Notes: generated from the letters alone by a model not told the origin. A DNA stretch of 39,353 bases from Streptococcaceae bacterium (GCA_031254115.1 JAIRUZ010000030.1:1-39353), one strand, 5' to 3'; shown: positions 3,185 through 22,341, counted from the first letter of the stretch. Numbers and translations: made by a program.

Positions 3185-4108
3185 ATGAAGAAAATAATTT
3201 TGGGCGCGTTGCTCGTGTTGCTTCTTGTTGTTGGCGTTGTGTTCGGTTTTTCGGCAGGCAAAAAGCCGCAAGCGCTGACAAAAAACACGAGCACAGTAAG
3301 CGTCTCCCATCCGTCAGAGCCTGCAGCGAATTTACCCCTTTTGAAAATTGATGCCACGTCTGTCAGCGCTGACAGAGTTTTTCTGGTTTCAGATATTCAT
3401 GGGCGCTTTGACAGTTTGAAAAAGGCTTTGTCAGACGTGAAATTTTCAAAAAAAGATGCGCTTTATGTGCTCGGCGACACCATTGACCGCGGCCCTGGTG
3501 GCTTTCACGCGCTGCTTTATTTGACGCAAACATTGCCAACCGCGGGCTATCAAGTGCACGTGCTGCAGGGCAATCACGAGGATATGTGGGCGGCCATGGC
3601 CGCGCAAGGCGCAAACGACGCGGAGCAGCTGTCAAATCTCAACGGCGCAATCGACATTTACGAAGGGTCAGCTCCCAACGGCTGGGCAGCTTCACAAACC
3701 GAATGGAATGCACTGAGCGCCGCCGAGCGCGCGTTTTTGCTCTCTGAAATGAAAACGGGCTTCGGCAATCCGCGCGAGCTGATTATTCATTACGGCGGCA
3801 AATGGCTCTCGCTCTCACACAGCGCAAATATGGCAGAAAGCCTGTCAGACGAGAGTGCGTGGGATCTCGCATGGAATAATCGTAACATGATAAATGCGCC
3901 CGCCACGCTTCGCGACAGCATCGCAAAGCGCTTGTCAGTCAACGCTTACGACGTTCAGATTTACATCGGCCACATCTCAAATTTCATGTTTGGCACGCAC
4001 CCAAATTACACCGACCTCGACGACACACCCGTCCAGTCAACGCTTGAAGAGTTCGACGCGACTCCTGTCAAATTATTTAACGTACGCGCGCAAAGCTTTG
4101 AAAATTAA
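3185..4108 (+). CDS. Membrane-anchored metallophosphoesterase (PP2A-like Ser/Thr phosphatase fold)
   Basis: A single N-terminal membrane segment (about residues 3-22) is followed by a calcineurin-like phosphoesterase domain facing outside. The metal and phosphate motifs are intact: DIHG (70-73), GDTIDRG (97-103) and GNHE (129-132). Later histidines in IIHYGGKW and YIGHISNF fit the remaining metal ligands. The arrangement resembles bacterial protein phosphatases or symmetrical Ap4A hydrolases (ApaH/PrpE group); the substrate is not predictable. A perfect copy of the window-wide palindrome encodes VSAD just before the catalytic domain. The gene stands alone, with its own promoter and terminator. 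Confidence 0.85.
   Translation: MKKIILGALLVLLLVVGVVFGFSAGKKPQALTKNTSTVSVSHPSEPAANLPLLKIDATSVSADRVFLVSDIHGRFDSLKKALSDVKFSKKDALYVLGDTIDRGPGGFHALLYLTQTLPTAGYQVHVLQGNHEDMWAAMAAQGANDAEQLSNLNGAIDIYEGSAPNGWAASQTEWNALSAAERAFLLSEMKTGFGNPRELIIHYGGKWLSLSHSANMAESLSDESAWDLAWNNRNMINAPATLRDSIAKRLSVNAYDVQIYIGHISNFMFGTHPNYTDLDDTPVQSTLEEFDATPVKLFNVRAQSFEN
3361..3374. repeat. TGTCAGCGCTGACA palindrome in the phosphoesterase gene
   Basis: Perfect copy; extended to the 16-mer CTGTCAGCGCTGACAG at 3360-3375. Read in the frame encoding VSAD, at the linker between membrane segment and catalytic domain. Confidence 0.95.
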
Positions 4109-15123: not shown

Positions 15124-15138
15124 GTCATTAAATTCTGT

Positions 15139-15168
15139 TATAATAATGTCAAAGGTTTTTGACATTAT
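15139..15168 (+). promoter_or_regulatory. Extended -10 promoter and 26-bp palindromic operator of the iron-type uptake operon
   Basis: TGT-TATAAT (15136-15144) overlaps the palindrome ATAATGTCAAA-N4-TTTGACATTAT (15143-15168). A repressor bound there would cover the -10 and start site. The same arms recur upstream of the binding-protein gene at 21359-21384. Confidence 0.8.
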
Positions 15169-15946
15169 GTATTTTGGTTGTGAAAATTTATCGGTTAAAT
15201 TCGGGCAAAAAGAAATTTTGCACGCTGTTTCTGTTGCCTTTGAAAAAGAAAAAACGACGGCGATTATCGGTGTCAATGGCAGCGGGAAATCAACGCTGCT
15301 GCGGGCACTTGGGCGTCTTGTCAGGGCTGACGGCACGATTTTTTATGAAGCTGACACTCTGTCAGCGCTGACAAGCCTCGAAATTGCGAGTCATATTGCC
15401 CTTTTGCCGCAATCCGCAACGTGTCCCGACGATATGACGGTCTATCAGCTCGTGAGTTTTGGGCGGTTTCCGCATCATAAGCTGACGCAGCAAAATCTGT
15501 CAGCTGATGATCACGCGCTTATTGAGAGGACGATGCGTGAGACAGCGGTTTGGGAATTACGAGATGAAAAAGTCTCGGCGCTCAGCGGCGGCCAGCGTCA
15601 GCGCGCATTTATCACGATGTGTTTGGCGCAAGACACCGATATTATTTTGCTCGACGAGCCGACGACTTATTTGGATATTGTTCACCAGATTGACATCTTG
15701 AAATTACTGAAAATGTTCGCCAAAAAACTCCATAAAACTGTCATTTATGTGCTGCACGACCTCAATCATGTCGCGCGTTTTGCGGATAATATGGTCGTGA
15801 TGAAAGACGGGCGGATCAGCGTCGCGGGCAGCGTTTCAGACGTTTTCACCACCGAAATGATTGCCGAAAATTTCGGGCTGAATGTCGCGCTTGGCAGTGA
15901 CTCATTCTCTGGAAGCCGCATGATTACTGGAGTTTCAGATGATTAG
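15167..15946 (+). CDS. ABC transporter ATPase, iron-siderophore/haem/B12 type (FecE/FhuC-like)
   Basis: The ATPase energises uptake of an iron chelate or related cofactor through the two FecCD-type permeases that follow. It has Walker A GVNGSGKST, Q-loop LLPQSATCPDD, signature LSGGQRQRAFI and Walker B ILLDEPTTYLD followed by the H-loop YVLHDLNHV. The start at 15167 is preferred because an in-frame ATG at 15146 lies inside the operator and upstream of the predicted transcript start (about 15151); no Shine-Dalgarno is visible. A perfect palindrome encodes LSALT. The stop overlaps the next gene's start by 8 bp. Confidence 0.87.
   Translation: MYFGCENLSVKFGQKEILHAVSVAFEKEKTTAIIGVNGSGKSTLLRALGRLVRADGTIFYEADTLSALTSLEIASHIALLPQSATCPDDMTVYQLVSFGRFPHHKLTQQNLSADDHALIERTMRETAVWELRDEKVSALSGGQRQRAFITMCLAQDTDIILLDEPTTYLDIVHQIDILKLLKMFAKKLHKTVIYVLHDLNHVARFADNMVVMKDGRISVAGSVSDVFTTEMIAENFGLNVALGSDSFSGSRMITGVSDD
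15360..15373. repeat. TGTCAGCGCTGACA palindrome in the uptake ATPase gene
   Basis: Perfect copy, encoding LSALT. A degenerate copy (TGTCAGGGCTGACG) lies about 40 bp upstream. Confidence 0.95.
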
Positions 15947-16892
15947 ACGCTGGAAAATTGCGACGGCGGCAAGTGTGCTGCTATTGCTCTTATTTTCTGT
16001 CAGCTATCTTCTTTTGGGCGACAAAAATTACGCGCTGACTGATATTTTCACAAATCCGATTATTCTACACCTGCGCTTGCCGCGGCTTGCAGCCGTTTTA
16101 CTGACTGGCGCTTTGTTGTCAGCCAGCGGCTTTCTTGTGCAGCTGATGACGAAAAATCCCATTGCCGAAATGACAACACTTGGCATTTCTGGCGGCGCAA
16201 GTCTCGCATTGGCCGTTTTGCTGGTGCTTGGCGGCGCATCGGGCGGTTTTTTAGCCATGGGAAGTGCGACATTTGGCGCGTTTGTCGCGCTCGTTTGCGT
16301 GCTCGTATTTACCGCAAAAACCCATTTTCAGCCACTCAAAGTTGTGCTTGTCGGCACCTCTATCGGGCTTTTCGCGACAAGCCTTGCGGGCGCGCTGACT
16401 TTTTACACGCACAACACGCAAGCCTATTTTTACTGGATAGTCGGCTCTTTTGCCGGTGTGACGCTTCTCAAGCTGGAAATGCTCACGTATGTCGCGCTCA
16501 TTTTTTTAGGCGTGACCCTCATTTTCGCCACACGTTTTCGAGCGCTCGAAATGGGAGACGAGATGGCGCGCGGCCTCGGAGTCAATGTTGCCCTCACGCG
16601 CCTCGTTATCATGGCGCTCGTTGCGCTCACGAGCGGCGTCAGCGTTGCTTCTGTCGGCGTGATTGCATTTGTCGGGCTCATTGCGCCGCACATCGCGCGA
16701 AATTTCAGCAGTTCCGCTCATTTTTGGAGAACGCTCATTCTGTCAGCGCTGACAGGTATGAATTTACTCATTCTCGCGGATTTACTTGCGCGAAATTTGA
16801 TGAAGCCCTATGAATTCCCAGCGGGCAGCCTCACCATGCTCATTGGCGCGCCTTTTTTCATCTCACTCATGAGTAGAAAGGAGCGAAAATGA
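15939..16892 (+). CDS. FecCD-family iron-chelate ABC permease, subunit 1
   Basis: The 317-residue protein has about nine hydrophobic segments and the FecCD hallmarks: LRLPRLAAVLLTGALLSASGFLVQ near the N-terminus, LGISGGASLA, and GVIAFVGLIAPHIARNF, the loop that contacts the ATPase. It pairs with the next gene as the membrane channel of a BtuCD-fold importer. Start and stop overlap both neighbours, indicating tight coupling. A perfect palindrome near the C-terminus encodes LSALT between membrane segments. Confidence 0.92.
   Translation: MIRRWKIATAASVLLLLLFSVSYLLLGDKNYALTDIFTNPIILHLRLPRLAAVLLTGALLSASGFLVQLMTKNPIAEMTTLGISGGASLALAVLLVLGGASGGFLAMGSATFGAFVALVCVLVFTAKTHFQPLKVVLVGTSIGLFATSLAGALTFYTHNTQAYFYWIVGSFAGVTLLKLEMLTYVALIFLGVTLIFATRFRALEMGDEMARGLGVNVALTRLVIMALVALTSGVSVASVGVIAFVGLIAPHIARNFSSSAHFWRTLILSALTGMNLLILADLLARNLMKPYEFPAGSLTMLIGAPFFISLMSRKERK
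16741..16754. repeat. TGTCAGCGCTGACA palindrome in permease 1
   Basis: Perfect 16-mer CTGTCAGCGCTGACAG at 16740-16755; encodes LSALT in the loop after the IAPHIARN motif. Confidence 0.95.
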
Positions 16893-17833
16893 GCACAAGG
16901 CGATTTATTTTTGCAGGACTCACTACTTTGTTTTTTATAGTACTTGATTTATTGCAATACCCTGACAATTTGAGTGCTTTGCAACTCCTAATATTCCAAT
17001 TTCGCTTGCCGCGCCTGATTGCTGTTGCGCTTGCTGCCGTTGCGCTTGCTGTTTCGGGACTTATTATCCAAACCATCACTGAAAATCCGCTGGCTGACAG
17101 CGGTACCATGGGGCTCACAAGCGGCGCTTCCGCGGGCGCCGTCGCATTTATGCTCCTTTCCGAGCGGCTAAATTTATCGTCTGTTTGGACGTTTAGTTAT
17201 CCCATTTTTGCCGTCGCGGGCGCTGGGCTCGCCTTTTCGCTCATTTATTTTTTTGCCATTCGCAAAAAGCTCTCAAATTCTCGCATTCTCCTCACTGGAA
17301 TCGCTGTCACCGCGCTTTTTCAGGCGCTCATCACGCTTTTACAGCTTGCCATCAACCCCAATGATTTTCAGCAAATTGCCACTTGGATTGCGGGCGATGT
17401 TTGGCAAACGGATACGCTCTATCTTGCAATTCTCGCAGGCGCGTTGCTCATTCTCATGCTGCTTCTCCATCCTTTTGCCAAGCGTCTTGAATTGCTTTCT
17501 CTTGGCGACGAACAGGCAACGACTTTGGGGCTTAACGTCCCCCAAACGAAGCGGCGCCTGTATTTGCTCGCTCTTGGTTTTGCGTCCATTGGTGTTGCGC
17601 TCGTCGGCGGCCTCGCCTTTCTCGGGCTCATTGCGCCACATATTGCAAGGCGGCTGACAGGTTTTTCCATACGCAAACGCTTGACAATGACTGTGCTGAC
17701 AGGCCTTTCTCTTCTTATTCTCGCTGATTTTCTCAGCCAAACGCTCATCGCGCCAAGCACACTGCCGCTCGGCTTCATCGTCGCCGCAATCGGCGCGCCC
17801 TATTATATTTACCTTATCCAAAAAGAAATCTAG
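16889..17833 (+). CDS. FecCD-family iron-chelate ABC permease, subunit 2
   Basis: The 314-residue partner permease has FRLPRLIAVALAAVALAVSGLIIQ, DSGTMGLTSGASAGAV and GGLAFLGLIAPHIARRL. It overlaps the previous gene by 4 bp (ATGA). A strong bidirectional terminator follows, so the operon has three genes and no binding protein. The likely binding protein is encoded at 21418-22341 behind an identical operator design. Confidence 0.92.
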   Translation: MSTRRFIFAGLTTLFFIVLDLLQYPDNLSALQLLIFQFRLPRLIAVALAAVALAVSGLIIQTITENPLADSGTMGLTSGASAGAVAFMLLSERLNLSSVWTFSYPIFAVAGAGLAFSLIYFFAIRKKLSNSRILLTGIAVTALFQALITLLQLAINPNDFQQIATWIAGDVWQTDTLYLAILAGALLILMLLLHPFAKRLELLSLGDEQATTLGLNVPQTKRRLYLLALGFASIGVALVGGLAFLGLIAPHIARRLTGFSIRKRLTMTVLTGLSLLILADFLSQTLIAPSTLPLGFIVAAIGAPYYIYLIQKEI

Positions 17834-17842
17834 CCTAAAGCT

Positions 17843-17896
17843 GCCAAATAAAAACTTCCGTTCGGCCACGTCGCCGTTCGGAAGTTTTTATTTGGC
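17843..17896. terminator. Bidirectional terminator
   Basis: Perfect 18-bp inverted repeat, GCCAAATAAAAACTTCCG (17843-17860) and its complement (17879-17896). A/T tracts on both sides serve the uptake operon and the convergent exporter operon. Confidence 0.92.
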
Positions 17897-17905
17897 CTAT
17901 TTGCT

Positions 17906-19555
17906 TCACGCGCTAATCAAATCGCGTCTGCGATAGCCAACAAAGCCAATAATTGTAAGAACAACTGCAAGCGCGAGAATCAGCCAGAGATTGTTCCAGT
18001 TCGGCGTGTTCGCGGCAACTGTTTGGCTCGTTTCCTTGAAAACGTGCGCAAAGACATTCAAATCTTTGAGTGCCTGCGGAAATTTCAGCATATTGCCAAG
18101 ATAGCCCATAAAGAAGCTAAAGCCGACATACACCCAGATGACCGCCGTAAATCGTGGCAAAAAGGCAATCAGAAGACTGACAATTGACAAAACGAAGAAC
18201 ATTGGGAATACCCAAACCATGCCTGATGTCATCATTTTCCCGAACTCAACAGCGCTGCTGTTCCCCGATTGCGCTATCCAAAGCCCAAGAACCGTAATAA
18301 ATTGAACAATGGCGCTCAAGCTCCAAGCAACGAGCGTGTACGTGGCATACAGTTTGAGACGGCTGAGCGGTCCCGCATAAAGCTGCTCTTGACGATTTTT
18401 ACGCTCTTCTGACGCCATGCGCGTAAGGCTCGTGATGCCGTAACAGGTCGTGATAATCCCCATCACCATGAAAACAGTCGTCAAATATTGTGCCGTCATC
18501 GCCGCAATGCCCGCTTTTGGATCGAGCGCAAACATCTGCGCGAGTTGACTGTTTCCCTTGATGAGGTCACCGATGCCATTAATCATGGAACCGTAAACAA
18601 TCCCGAGAATGAACAGTCCGCCTGCCCAGCCAAGAAACGCCGTGCGTTGCATACGCAACGTTAAGCCTGTCAATGACTGCAAGAGTGCGCTTGCGTGCTC
18701 TTTTCCGCGCGACTCAGGAATATAGCTGACTGCAACGTCGCGGCGCAATTCAAGACTGTAACTCAGCGCCAAAATGATGAAAGACAGTGCCAAAGCGAGC
18801 ACAATCGGTGTCCAATTATCCTTGACATAAACGTCTGTCAGATAGCTCCACGAAAGCGGATTGAGCCAGGAAAGACTGATATTTTGCGTGTCCGTGTACA
18901 TCCGGATGACGTAGAGTGTGCCAAGAATGCCCATTGATGCGCCTTTGACTGAGCCCGCGTCTGGCATGATTTGTGCGACTAAAAGCGTAATCATTGCCCA
19001 CATAAAAGTCTGTGCGCCAAGGCCTGACGCGTACAGCAGATTTGAGCTGAAGCTTGTCATTGATTCCATCTGGACTTTTTGCAAAATAACGGCGAGTAAG
19101 AGCGTCGTTACCACTTGCAAAAGCGCCATAATCAGTACAACCGCGGTTGTATTGGCTAATTTACCCACTTGAAATGAGCGGAAAAGCTCGGCAATGCCTT
19201 CGTCTTCGTCCCGACGCGTGCGGTTGGCAACATAAACAATCGTGACAATGATAAACACAAGTGCCGTAATCAGCGTCATGGTTTGCCCAAAGACCGCCCC
19301 AATCGTGTAAGCTGCTGCATTTTTCACGGGCGTAGGGCCAAATAAAGCAACCATGGCTGGATTTCCAGCAAAAAGATTATAAATGGTAGCTTGTTGGGCG
19401 GGCGAGGATTTGCCATTGACTTCAAAAATGGCAGAGAATTTGGTAACGCCTGATCCGACAAACAGGAGGACCATTATCACCCATACGCTAAGACGCACCC
19501 AGTCGCGCTTCAAAAGCGCGCGGAACATTCCAAAAGTTTTAGTTAAAGGTTTCAT
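17906..19555 (-). CDS. ABC-2 type exporter permease (polyketide/multidrug exporter-like)
   Basis: The 549-residue protein has about 12 membrane segments in two repeats. It resembles the large permeases paired with DrrA-type ATPases (the exporter-of-polyketide-antibiotics group). Landmarks are RALLKRDWVRLSVWVIMVLLF at the start and NRTRRDEDEGIAELFRSFQVGK followed by a second copy-like TRMASEERKNRQEQLYAGPLSRLK. It lies 23 bp behind its ATPase. The substrate is unknown; the TetR divergent arrangement suggests a toxic compound. Confidence 0.85.
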   Translation of the reverse strand: MKPLTKTFGMFRALLKRDWVRLSVWVIMVLLFVGSGVTKFSAIFEVNGKSSPAQQATIYNLFAGNPAMVALFGPTPVKNAAAYTIGAVFGQTMTLITALVFIIVTIVYVANRTRRDEDEGIAELFRSFQVGKLANTTAVVLIMALLQVVTTLLLAVILQKVQMESMTSFSSNLLYASGLGAQTFMWAMITLLVAQIMPDAGSVKGASMGILGTLYVIRMYTDTQNISLSWLNPLSWSYLTDVYVKDNWTPIVLALALSFIILALSYSLELRRDVAVSYIPESRGKEHASALLQSLTGLTLRMQRTAFLGWAGGLFILGIVYGSMINGIGDLIKGNSQLAQMFALDPKAGIAAMTAQYLTTVFMVMGIITTCYGITSLTRMASEERKNRQEQLYAGPLSRLKLYATYTLVAWSLSAIVQFITVLGLWIAQSGNSSAVEFGKMMTSGMVWVFPMFFVLSIVSLLIAFLPRFTAVIWVYVGFSFFMGYLGNMLKFPQALKDLNVFAHVFKETSQTVAANTPNWNNLWLILALAVVLTIIGFVGYRRRDLISA

Positions 19556-19578
19556 AATACGTCACAGAGATCCTTTCG

Positions 19579-20478
19579 TTAGTTGCGTGCGTCGTTTGCA
19601 TTGTCGTAATGGTGCATGAAGAGCTCTTCGAGCGTTGGTGGCGTGACCTGGAGTTTTTCAATGTCAAGCGCTGCAAGCTCAGACATGACTGTCTGCAATT
19701 TTTCTGTGTCGACTTGGAAAGTGGCTTTATTGCCGTCGTGCGAAAAATCATACACGCCAGAAATAGCTGCAAGCGCTTCGGCGCTCTTTTGCGTCTCTAC
19801 AACCACGGTGTCACGCGTGAAATGGCGCATATCATCAAGCGATCCAGAATCCACTATTTCGCCTGATTTGATAACTACCACACGGTCCGCGAGTTTTTCG
19901 ACTTCCGAGAGAATGTGGCTGGAGAGCAAGACAGCTTTGCCTGCGGCTTTAAGCTTTTCGACTTCTTCTTGGAAAACAGCTTCCATCAGCGGATCAAGAC
20001 CACTCGTTGGCTCATCAAAAATGTAGAGCTCGGCATCCGCGGCAAGAGCCGCAATCAGCGCAATTTTCTGGCGATTTCCCTTGGAATAGCTGCGCGCCTT
20101 TTTCTTTGGATCCAGCTCAAAACGCTTGATGAGATTGTCGCGCTTCGTATGGTTCGCATGGCCGTGGAGTTTCAGAAACATGTCAATAATTTCGCCACCC
20201 GAGAGATTCGGCCAGAGATATACGTCGCCAGGAACATACGCAATGTTTTTGTGAATCTCAATCGCGTCCGTCCACACGTCTTTGCCAAAAATATGCGCGC
20301 TGCCGCCGGTGCCTTTAATAATGCCAAGCAATGTGCGAATTGTCGTTGATTTTCCCGCGCCATTAGGGCCAATATAGCCCAAAACCTCACCCGCGTTAAG
20401 CTCAAACGACACATTTTTGAGCGCTTGGAATTTGCCAAAGTGTTTTGATAAGCCTTTGACTTCAATAATTGCAGACAT
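19579..20478 (-). CDS. ABC exporter ATPase (DrrA-like)
   Basis: The 299-residue ATPase has Walker A GPNGAGKST, a variant signature YSKGNRQKIALI in place of the usual SGGQ, and Walker B LYIFDEPTSGLDP, plus a C-terminal extension (about 220-299) typical of drug-exporter ATPases. A GGAGG ribosome site precedes the ATG. It forms an operon with the permease gene at 17906-19555 and is divergent from a tetR gene whose product probably represses it. Confidence 0.9.
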   Translation of the reverse strand: MSAIIEVKGLSKHFGKFQALKNVSFELNAGEVLGYIGPNGAGKSTTIRTLLGIIKGTGGSAHIFGKDVWTDAIEIHKNIAYVPGDVYLWPNLSGGEIIDMFLKLHGHANHTKRDNLIKRFELDPKKKARSYSKGNRQKIALIAALAADAELYIFDEPTSGLDPLMEAVFQEEVEKLKAAGKAVLLSSHILSEVEKLADRVVVIKSGEIVDSGSLDDMRHFTRDTVVVETQKSAEALAAISGVYDFSHDGNKATFQVDTEKLQTVMSELAALDIEKLQVTPPTLEELFMHHYDNANDARN

Positions 20479-20489
20479 TTTCTGCCTCC

Positions 20490-20547
20490 TTATAATAAAT
20501 CTTTATGTTTACAGATTTATTATAAACTTCAATAAAAGTTTTGTCAA
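20490..20547 (-). promoter_or_regulatory. Exporter promoter overlapped by a 13-bp-arm palindrome
   Basis: TTGACA (20542-20547) and TATAAT (20519-20524) are 17 bp apart on the minus strand. The inverted repeat TTATAATAAATCT (20490-20502) / AGATTTATTATAA (20513-20525) covers the -10 and start site. In RNA only part of it is transcribed, so a DNA operator for the TetR protein is likelier than an RNA hairpin. Confidence 0.75.
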
Positions 20548-20574
20548 GAAAAATGTACTTATTTTTTATATTTA

Positions 20575-20624
20575 GTTCAAAGTGAACCAAAATATTTGAC
20601 AAAGTTCACAAAAAAGATTATACT
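20575..20624 (+). promoter_or_regulatory. tetR promoter with GTTCA/TGAAC half sites
   Basis: TTGACA (20596-20601) and TATACT (20619-20624) are 17 bp apart. GTTCA-AAG-TGAAC (20575-20587) lies upstream. GTGAAC (20582-20587) and GTTCAC (20604-20609) flank the -35, making candidate TetR half sites. Confidence 0.75.
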
Positions 20625-20640
20625 AAAATTGTCAGTTACT

Positions 20641-20762
20641 GAATCTGTTTCATAACCCTGCTTTTTCGTCTAACCACGCTTTAGCGCTCGGCGTGTGCGC
20701 CGAGTGAATGAACGCAAAGCTGAGTTAGCCTTCAACAGCAAAGCGGGTTATGAAACAAGTCT
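20641..20762. repeat. 122-bp fold-back repeat, copy 1
   Basis: Ends in perfect 13-bp arms TGTTTCATAACCC (20646-20658) and GGGTTATGAAACA (20745-20757). Inside are nested pairs CTAAC/GTTAG and CTCGGCG-TGTG-CGCCGAG at the tip. The second copy is at 30872-30994. It starts about 10 bp after the predicted tetR transcription start, so it would form most of the tetR leader. It encodes no protein; a small non-autonomous mobile element (MITE) or structured RNA are the options. Confidence 0.8.
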
Positions 20763-20784
20763 ATTAATATAGAAAGAGTTTAAC

Positions 20785-21342
20785 ATGAATCAATCTGAAA
20801 AAAAGCGGGCGCGCGTGCTTGAGGTGACGGAGGAAATGCTGCAACAGTACACGATTTCCGATATTACGATGGACGAAATTGCGCAAAAAGCAGAGGTTTC
20901 CAAGGTCACCATTTTCAAATACTTTGAGAGCAAGGACAAGCTGATGAATCGTGTGCTGCACGGAACGCTGACAGAAATGATTGATGACATCACTGAGATT
21001 ATGGAAAGTGAGCTGGGCTACGAGGAGCTTTATCAGGCGCTGACAGCGCTCAAGCTTTCGCGTCTTGACAGGATGACGCCGCTTTTGACGCAAAATATCA
21101 TGACGCAATATGCAACGAATCCTGATTTTTTTGACATGGGAAGCCGTGATTTGCAGCGTCAGCTGGCCAAAAAACTCTTTGAAAAAGGGCGCGCCGAAGG
21201 CAAAATCAATTCTCAATACACGGACGAAGAGCTCCAAATGCTGCTTGACGTCTACGATGAGGGCATGAAAGTCGTGGCGCCCGATTTTCTCTTGTCGCAC
21301 ACCGATGCGCTGACAAAAATGTTTCTCAATGCGCTGAAGTAA
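20785..21342 (+). CDS. TetR-family repressor of the divergent exporter
   Basis: The 185-residue protein has an N-terminal TetR helix-turn-helix (ISDITMDEIAQKAEVSKVTI then FKYFESKDKLMNRV, residues about 23-55) and a helical ligand domain. It is divergent from the ABC exporter genes, the usual arrangement for a drug-responsive repressor. Operator-like palindromes occupy both promoters in the shared intergenic region. The leader is unusually long because the fold-back repeat lies in it. A weak AGAAAGAG site precedes the ATG. Confidence 0.9.
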   Translation: MNQSEKKRARVLEVTEEMLQQYTISDITMDEIAQKAEVSKVTIFKYFESKDKLMNRVLHGTLTEMIDDITEIMESELGYEELYQALTALKLSRLDRMTPLLTQNIMTQYATNPDFFDMGSRDLQRQLAKKLFEKGRAEGKINSQYTDEELQMLLDVYDEGMKVVAPDFLLSHTDALTKMFLNALK

Positions 21343-21351
21343 ATTCCATGA

Positions 21352-21384
21352 TATAATGATAATGTCAAAAGTCTTTGACATTAT
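21352..21384 (+). promoter_or_regulatory. Promoter and 26-bp operator of the binding-protein gene
   Basis: TGA-TATAAT (21349-21357) is followed after 1 bp by ATAATGTCAAA-N4-TTTGACATTAT (21359-21384). The arms are identical to those at 15143-15168; only the four central bases differ. The predicted start site is inside the operator. Confidence 0.82.
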
Positions 21385-21417: not shown

Positions 21418-22341
21418 TTGAAAAAGTTATTGATCGTTTTGTCAGCTCTGACAGCTTTCCTGACGCTTTCTGCTTGCAGTTCTGGCAAGTCGTCAGCTAC
21501 TTCTGCGTCTTCTGGCACGCGCAATTTTCAGACAGCAAATGGCACGGTGAAAATTCCGTCAGCGCCCAAGCGCGTCGTGGTTCAAAATTACCCTGATGAA
21601 GCGCTCGCGCTTGGCGTCACGGTCGTAGGCACTGACAGTTGGGCGTATCCCAATCCGTATTTTTCGGCGGCTCAAAAGAAAAATCTGGTTGATCTCGGCG
21701 CGCCGTCTTTCAATCTTCCAAAACTCATCGCGCAAAAGCCTGACTTGATTGTTGCGACGGACAAAACCCAAGTTGCAAATTACGAAAAAGTCGCGCCAAC
21801 TGTGCTGGTGGATTATTCCAAATTCAAAAACATGAAGCAATCGCTCGATTATTTTGCAGATTTGTTAAATCGCAAAGACGCGGAAAAAGCATTTCTTGAC
21901 AGCTTTAACAAAACGGCCGCTGACGAGCAGAAAAAGCTTGCAGCTGCTGGGATTGCGCCCGCTGACAAAACCGTTTCGATTTTGGAGCTGCAAGGCGACA
22001 AGATTTATGCCTATGGCGACAATTTCGCGCGCGGCGGGCAAGCGCTGACGTACGGGCTCGGCTTCAAAGAATCTGCGCAAATGAAAAAATTGTCCGCTGG
22101 GGCAGGCTACGCGCAGGTCAACGCGGAAAGTCTCAAAGATTTTGACGCTGATTACATCTTCGTTGACTTTGCAAGCGCTGACAGTGCACAATTCGCGGCG
22201 CTGTCAGAAAACCCAGCATTCAAGGCGCTCAAAGGCAAAATCATCACGATGGATTACAGCAAGGTCTATTTCTTCGGCGGCCCGATTGCGAGCCAAAAAG
22301 AAATGCCGATTTATACGGATGCGATTTTAGCTGCGAAGTAA
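21418..22341 (+). CDS. Iron-siderophore-type ABC substrate-binding lipoprotein
   Basis: This class III binding protein (FhuD/FecB fold) has a lipoprotein signal peptide with lipobox LSAC (Cys20). Its two lobes start at RVVVQNYPDEALALGV and DADYIFVDFAS. It should be tethered outside and deliver an iron chelate, haem or cobalamin to the importer at 15167-17833. The start is TTG at 21418: AAGGAG precedes it by 7 nt and no ATG fits. The signal peptide contains LSALT from an imperfect palindrome (21440-21453, TGTCAGCTCTGACA). It is monocistronic, ending at a terminator. Confidence 0.9.
   Translation: MKKLLIVLSALTAFLTLSACSSGKSSATSASSGTRNFQTANGTVKIPSAPKRVVVQNYPDEALALGVTVVGTDSWAYPNPYFSAAQKKNLVDLGAPSFNLPKLIAQKPDLIVATDKTQVANYEKVAPTVLVDYSKFKNMKQSLDYFADLLNRKDAEKAFLDSFNKTAADEQKKLAAAGIAPADKTVSILELQGDKIYAYGDNFARGGQALTYGLGFKESAQMKKLSAGAGYAQVNAESLKDFDADYIFVDFASADSAQFAALSENPAFKALKGKIITMDYSKVYFFGGPIASQKEMPIYTDAILAAK

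Follow-up and report, generated by a model that had tools for sequence, protein, structure and literature searches.

Two identical 26-bp operators placed before the separated halves of an iron importer belong, as judged from sequence comparison, to a set of iron and Fe–S switches that extends over the genome and is common to the lactococci, and the explanation that best accounts for them as a whole is probably a dual, iron- or Fe–S-responsive regulator of the XRE family that would act in the role of Fur and read these operators. The operators lie in a 39,353-nucleotide stretch of DNA (the window) from a 1.42-Mb draft genome, 76% complete, of a Streptococcaceae bacterium. Lactococci rank among the major bacteria of food, and the group also includes fish pathogens; to our knowledge, the control of lactococcal iron and Fe–S genes without Fur has so far been unclear. 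The evidence covers the sites, the regulon, the co-occurrence of sites and protein, operon linkage, two promoter geometries and conserved cysteines, and its outcome is a named candidate protein, its putative box, a list of targets and a predicted rule by which the position of the site would decide between repression and activation. If true, the XRE family would become a further fold type among the iron master regulators.

Profile matches in the window confirmed the families of the importer, namely a FecE/FhuC-like ATPase, two FecCD permeases and a Peripla_BP_2 binding protein (Table 1), the combination of a FecBCD/FhuBCD-type siderophore importer. The fhuD-like protein is 58–68% identical to Lactococcus orthologues encoded beside fhuG, and a single fhuCBGD operon is present in Lactococcus nasutitermitis, L. 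petauri, L. garvieae, L. formosensis and L. ileimucosae, which bears out the claim of an earlier note on this DNA that the two halves belong together. These genes are contiguous in Lactococcus; in the window, an exporter pair and a TetR-family gene (17906–21342), both absent from the orthologous fhu loci of the five named lactococci, split fhuCBG from fhuD, and the latter has a promoter and an operator of its own.

Table 1. Features of the fhu locus (positions in the window)
Feature	Position	Strand	Basis or remark
Extended −10 TGtTATAAT, fhuC promoter	15136..15144	+	hexamer 15139–15144, its first base 8 bp upstream of the 18-bp core
Operator 1, ATAATGTCAAA-GGTT-TTTGACATTAT	15143..15168	.	covers the predicted transcription start of fhuC
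fhuC-like ATPase, N-terminus MYFG... shared with orthologues	15167..15946	+	PF00005, FecE-like NCBIfam match; orthologue starts L015–L019
FecCD permease 1, fhuB-like	15939..16892	+	PF01032, 2e-74
FecCD permease 2, fhuG-like	16889..17833	+	PF01032, 7e-75
ABC-2 type exporter, two genes (permease, ATPase)	17906..20478	-	between fhuCBG and fhuD
TetR-family regulator	20785..21342	+	PF00440; between the importer halves
Extended −10 TGaTATAAT, fhuD promoter	21349..21357	+	hexamer 21352–21357, its first base 11 bp upstream of the 18-bp core
Operator 2, ATAATGTCAAA-AGTC-TTTGACATTAT	21359..21384	.	covers the predicted transcription start of fhuD
fhuD-like siderophore-binding lipoprotein	21418..22341	+	PF01497, 1.6e-11

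Both operators read ATAATGTCAAA-N4-TTTGACATTAT with 0 mismatches, all 22 of the 22 arm bases being identical as the earlier note had described; no other perfect 11-4-11 palindrome exists in the window (shuffle mean 0), nor any further site within three mismatches of the operator (0 in 100 dinucleotide shuffles). Since an extended −10 stands just upstream, each palindrome is predicted to contain the start site, in agreement with the position on the −10 and start site that had been proposed for them, and this placement is like that of a repressor site, as had also been expected. The best reading of the locus is that fhuC and fhuD are repressed targets of the candidate XRE regulator. A recent promoter duplication as the source of the two operators was considered and rejected, because the promoters are unlike outside the operators, where the unrelated flanks share 44% and 37% identity, no more than AT-rich DNA. 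A separate 14-bp palindrome, TGTCAGCGCTGACA, has 14 exact copies in the 39 kb (0 expected), at positions 3361, 4674, 10669, 12348, 12410, 15360, 16741, 23701, 24718, 25437, 31899, 34041, 37604 and 38243, often within genes, where it encodes -LSALT-. Among the 262 loci compared it is held only by loci of this genome, and it therefore looks species-specific and highly iterated, like HIP1 or DNA-uptake sequences.

The linked TetR-family regulator might have been expected to bind the operators, as its gene is the immediate upstream neighbour of operator 2 and palindromes of similar size serve TetR proteins as operators. Nevertheless, the motif is present at fhu loci that have neither TetR gene nor exporter (L016–L019; the five named lactococci), no such palindrome was found in the exporter/tetR intergenic region, and a TetR protein would be unable to explain why genera that lack this locus have the motif; this reading is thus highly improbable, and the TetR gene was set aside as a bystander.

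The core of the operator, TGTMAAA-N4-TTTKACA, was found across Lactococcus and neighbouring genera. In the draft genome itself, further copies stand in front of sufC, lutAB, cydA, a SufT-like DUF59 gene and the genes for an OsmC peroxiredoxin and a lipoate ligase, with the gene families confirmed. Over all genomes, the targets that recur are fhu, feoAB, other FecCD importers, suf, sufT, osmC, lutAB, nifJ, cydA, gltB and lplA. Targets seen in single genomes comprise hemH, mntH, VIT1 and an NADH oxidase gene, and the motif was further located before heavy-metal P-type ATPase genes and thioredoxin/ferredoxin-reductase-like genes. In Lactococcus, the motif recurs before a DUF1858 gene that has a DUF438-hemerythrin-PAS gene next in line (L188, L199, L205), a target for which an iron- or oxygen-linked function is possible. 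The genome search for the motif, put forward in the earlier note as a check, thus returned sites that mostly precede iron and Fe–S genes and are not scattered before unrelated ones, and, on the identity of these genes, the motif set is a predicted iron and Fe–S regulon.

The candidate reader is an XRE regulator of 92–104 residues, composed of an N-terminal CylR2-like Cro/CI helix-turn-helix (HTH) domain and a C-terminal tail. The HTH_3 domain (PF01381) was detected above the curated cut-off (1.1e-14 in P0001, 1.7e-16 in P0002), and the tail motif W-C-[ES]-K-Y-x-C, with both cysteines of its C-x4-C pair invariant, was present in 30/30 of the homologues read; the tail has no match to any solved structure, and an AlphaFold model of the protein built from one sequence reached a pLDDT of 46, too low to be of use. 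A search of 147 family genomes placed full-length homologues in four genera, that of the window's own genome (g1), g2, Lactococcus (g8) and g9, and only HTH-length matches in the large genus g4. Among the matches listed in an order-wide profile search of 295 genomes, that of the own genome alone attained full length; the rest of those listed were HTH-length or ran through stop codons. The gene of the own genome lies away from the fhu locus, on contig C4 (2353–2658), with the motif in front. The earlier note had found no match of the operator's TCAAA/TTTGA core to Fur, PerR, HrtR, MtsR or ZitR sites and had suspected an undescribed regulator. The suspicion stands in so far as the XRE regulator belongs to none of these types and is without report in the searchable literature, which leaves out most subscription journals.

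Several lines of evidence indicate that the XRE protein very likely binds the boxes. The 20 genomes carrying the tailed XRE protein hold 90 exact core sites (reversed pattern: 6), as against four in 20 family genomes without the protein (reversed pattern: 3). Of the 90, 51 come from eight genomes of the genus Lactococcus (reversed pattern: 4), and the remaining 39 from 12 genomes that belong to the window's own genus or to two others (reversed pattern: 2). The contrast between carriers and non-carriers may partly reflect kinship, since the genera with the protein possibly belong to a single clade. For 22 of the 30 XRE orthologues, the 150 bp upstream contain a site with no more than one core mismatch, vs 5/181 control ORFs. 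In addition, fhuCBGD begins with the XRE gene in most Lactococcus; this arrangement was found in L. nasutitermitis, where the motif precedes the XRE gene, and in G002, G021, G025, G074 and G082. The XRE gene heads feoAB in G001 and G004, and where fhuC is not downstream of the XRE gene (G000, G001, G019) it carries a site of its own. This linkage also suits the alternative in which another iron regulator reads the operators and the XRE gene is merely one of its targets, since a gene leading an import operon would be expected to have the operator in any case, so that the box there could be simply that of the operon and is no proof of the reader. In particular, the operator before an operon-leading regulator, together with the degenerate own site at the lone XRE genes of garvieae-type loci (L092, L093, L096), is the main weakness of the assignment. 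Nevertheless, the lone XRE genes of G000 and G003 keep a strong site upstream, site number tracks the tailed XRE protein across the 40 genomes, and the obvious alternative readers fail, all of which makes a different reader rather improbable.

Regarding these alternative readers, a Fur-family protein, either Fur or PerR, acting on a divergent box would be attractive for the target functions, which are the same as in the PerR prediction discussed below, and for the ATAATG/CATTAT ends of the operator, which resemble a Fur box. It was rejected, with a very small residual probability, because Fur-family proteins (PF01475) are absent from 10/11 of the motif-bearing carriers tested, among them the window's own draft genome at its 76% completeness; such a protein is present in 4/6 of the non-carriers tested, the Fur-family-bearing relatives G006, G007, G008 and G010 have no motif enrichment, and the symmetry of the motif is 9-4-9, not 7-1-7. 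Rrf2 proteins (IscR, SifR) were likewise discarded because their distribution does not track the motif: none was found in G004 and only sub-threshold matches in G012, both motif-bearing, and they are present in non-carriers such as G007–G010.

The position of the box relative to the −10 separates two promoter geometries. The promoters were sorted beforehand by the function of their genes, and the −10 was located relative to the core. At uptake, assembly, xre and osmC promoters, the −10 hexamer starts 7–16 bp before the core in 38/46 (mean 8.5 and maximum 17 in the shuffled-flank control for these 46), an arrangement that puts the box over the start site and apparently corresponds to repression at uptake and assembly genes. 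At lutA (6/6), cydA (2/2), hemH and one nifJ, the −10 starts 50–51 bp after the core start, which places the box at about −63 to −46, centred near −54.5. This spacing was found in 10 of the 17 promoters of the pre-set iron-enzyme group and in 0/46 of the uptake/assembly-type promoters; in a revised activation-type selection it reached 13/16 (shuffle mean 0.4, maximum 2), a selection that adds VIT1 and two P-type ATPases after the geometry had been seen and omits gltB and a reductase gene. The genes with the activation-type box position are lutA, cydA, hemH, VIT1, a heavy-metal P-type ATPase and one nifJ, and a fixed spacing common to six unrelated gene families suggests contact with RNA polymerase and hence activation, so that a box centred near −54.5 is likely to act positively at most iron-using and iron-disposal genes. 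The idea that the box supplies the −35 element of the activated genes was rejected, as TTGACA in the 18-bp core ends 33 bp before their −10. The sites of lplA, gltB, dnk and some nifJ match neither geometry; the nifJ promoters of g9 and the gltB and dnk promoters have the motif in other spacings, with the −10 at +57/58 or unclear (L217, L218, L165, L214, L172, L189). The predicted sense fits iron economy, in that uptake would be off and iron enzymes and iron disposal on when iron is present.

In regard to the signal, the conserved C-x4-C pair and the content of the regulon point to iron or an Fe–S cluster, which is fairly likely, and the tail cysteines may well be what holds it. An alternative accepts the XRE protein as the reader but takes the cysteine tail as a thiol/oxygen switch or a zinc site and the signal as redox instead of iron; the paired-cysteine motif is compatible with a disulphide, and the targets include OsmC, NADH oxidase and thioredoxin/ferredoxin-reductase-like genes. 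The core targets, nonetheless, are dedicated iron importers, Fe–S assembly, ferrochelatase, VIT1 and Fe–S or haem enzymes, and the XRE gene is operon-linked to feoAB or fhuCBGD, so that a redox signal is considered unlikely. In the mechanism proposed for the iron-responsive XRE protein, a dimer with iron or an Fe–S cluster on its paired cysteines would bind TGTMAAA-N4-TTTKACA; a site over the start site (fhuC, fhuD, feoA, other FecCD importers, suf, sufT, osmC and xre itself) would block RNA polymerase, and a site near −54.5, in the six families listed above, would lead to activation. Upon loss of iron the protein would leave the DNA, with uptake and cluster assembly rising and iron-using and iron-disposal genes falling, and the regulator would thereby do the job of Fur in bacteria mostly without a Fur-family protein. 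In its most specific form, which is plausible, the proposal would add to the global iron regulators a class that had gone unrecognised: CylR2-like XRE proteins would carry iron or Fe–S on the W-C-x-K-Y-x-C tail (four cysteines per dimer), repress from start-site boxes, activate from a box centred near −54.5, and replace Fur in Lactococcus and its neighbours.

With respect to known systems, residues 2–63 of the XRE HTH align with CylR2 of Enterococcus faecalis (PDB 1utx; phmmer 8.6e-13, profile 3.8e-18), the alignment taking in the VSRQTIN recognition region, and CylR2 and similar XRE regulators of 65–70 residues represent the class of one-component dimeric repressors to which the candidate, by analogy, would belong. 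The candidate differs in having about 30 extra residues with the invariant W-C-x-K-Y-x-C, in no solved relative, and in its targets, which are iron genes genome-wide, whereas CylR2-type regulators serve one neighbouring operon. The Rrf2 proteins IscR, RirA and SifR also control suf and iron uptake, possibly through a cysteine-bound Fe–S cluster, but the candidate is not a homologue of them; the operator of the Rrf2 protein SifR of S. pneumoniae, TGTAA-N9-TTACA (PMC9218516), is superficially similar to the one described here, TGTMA-N8-TKACA. A 2013 reconstruction for Streptococcaceae placed fhu, feo, fat and suf under predicted PerR control (PMC3616900); the targets fhu, feoAB, fat and suf overlap, but the motif and the candidate protein differ, and most of the carriers tested, being without a Fur-family protein, would have no PerR. 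From Fur and DtxR/MntR the candidate differs in fold family and operator, but the logic of the regulon is alike, with uptake apparently repressed and iron-using and iron-disposal genes apparently activated.
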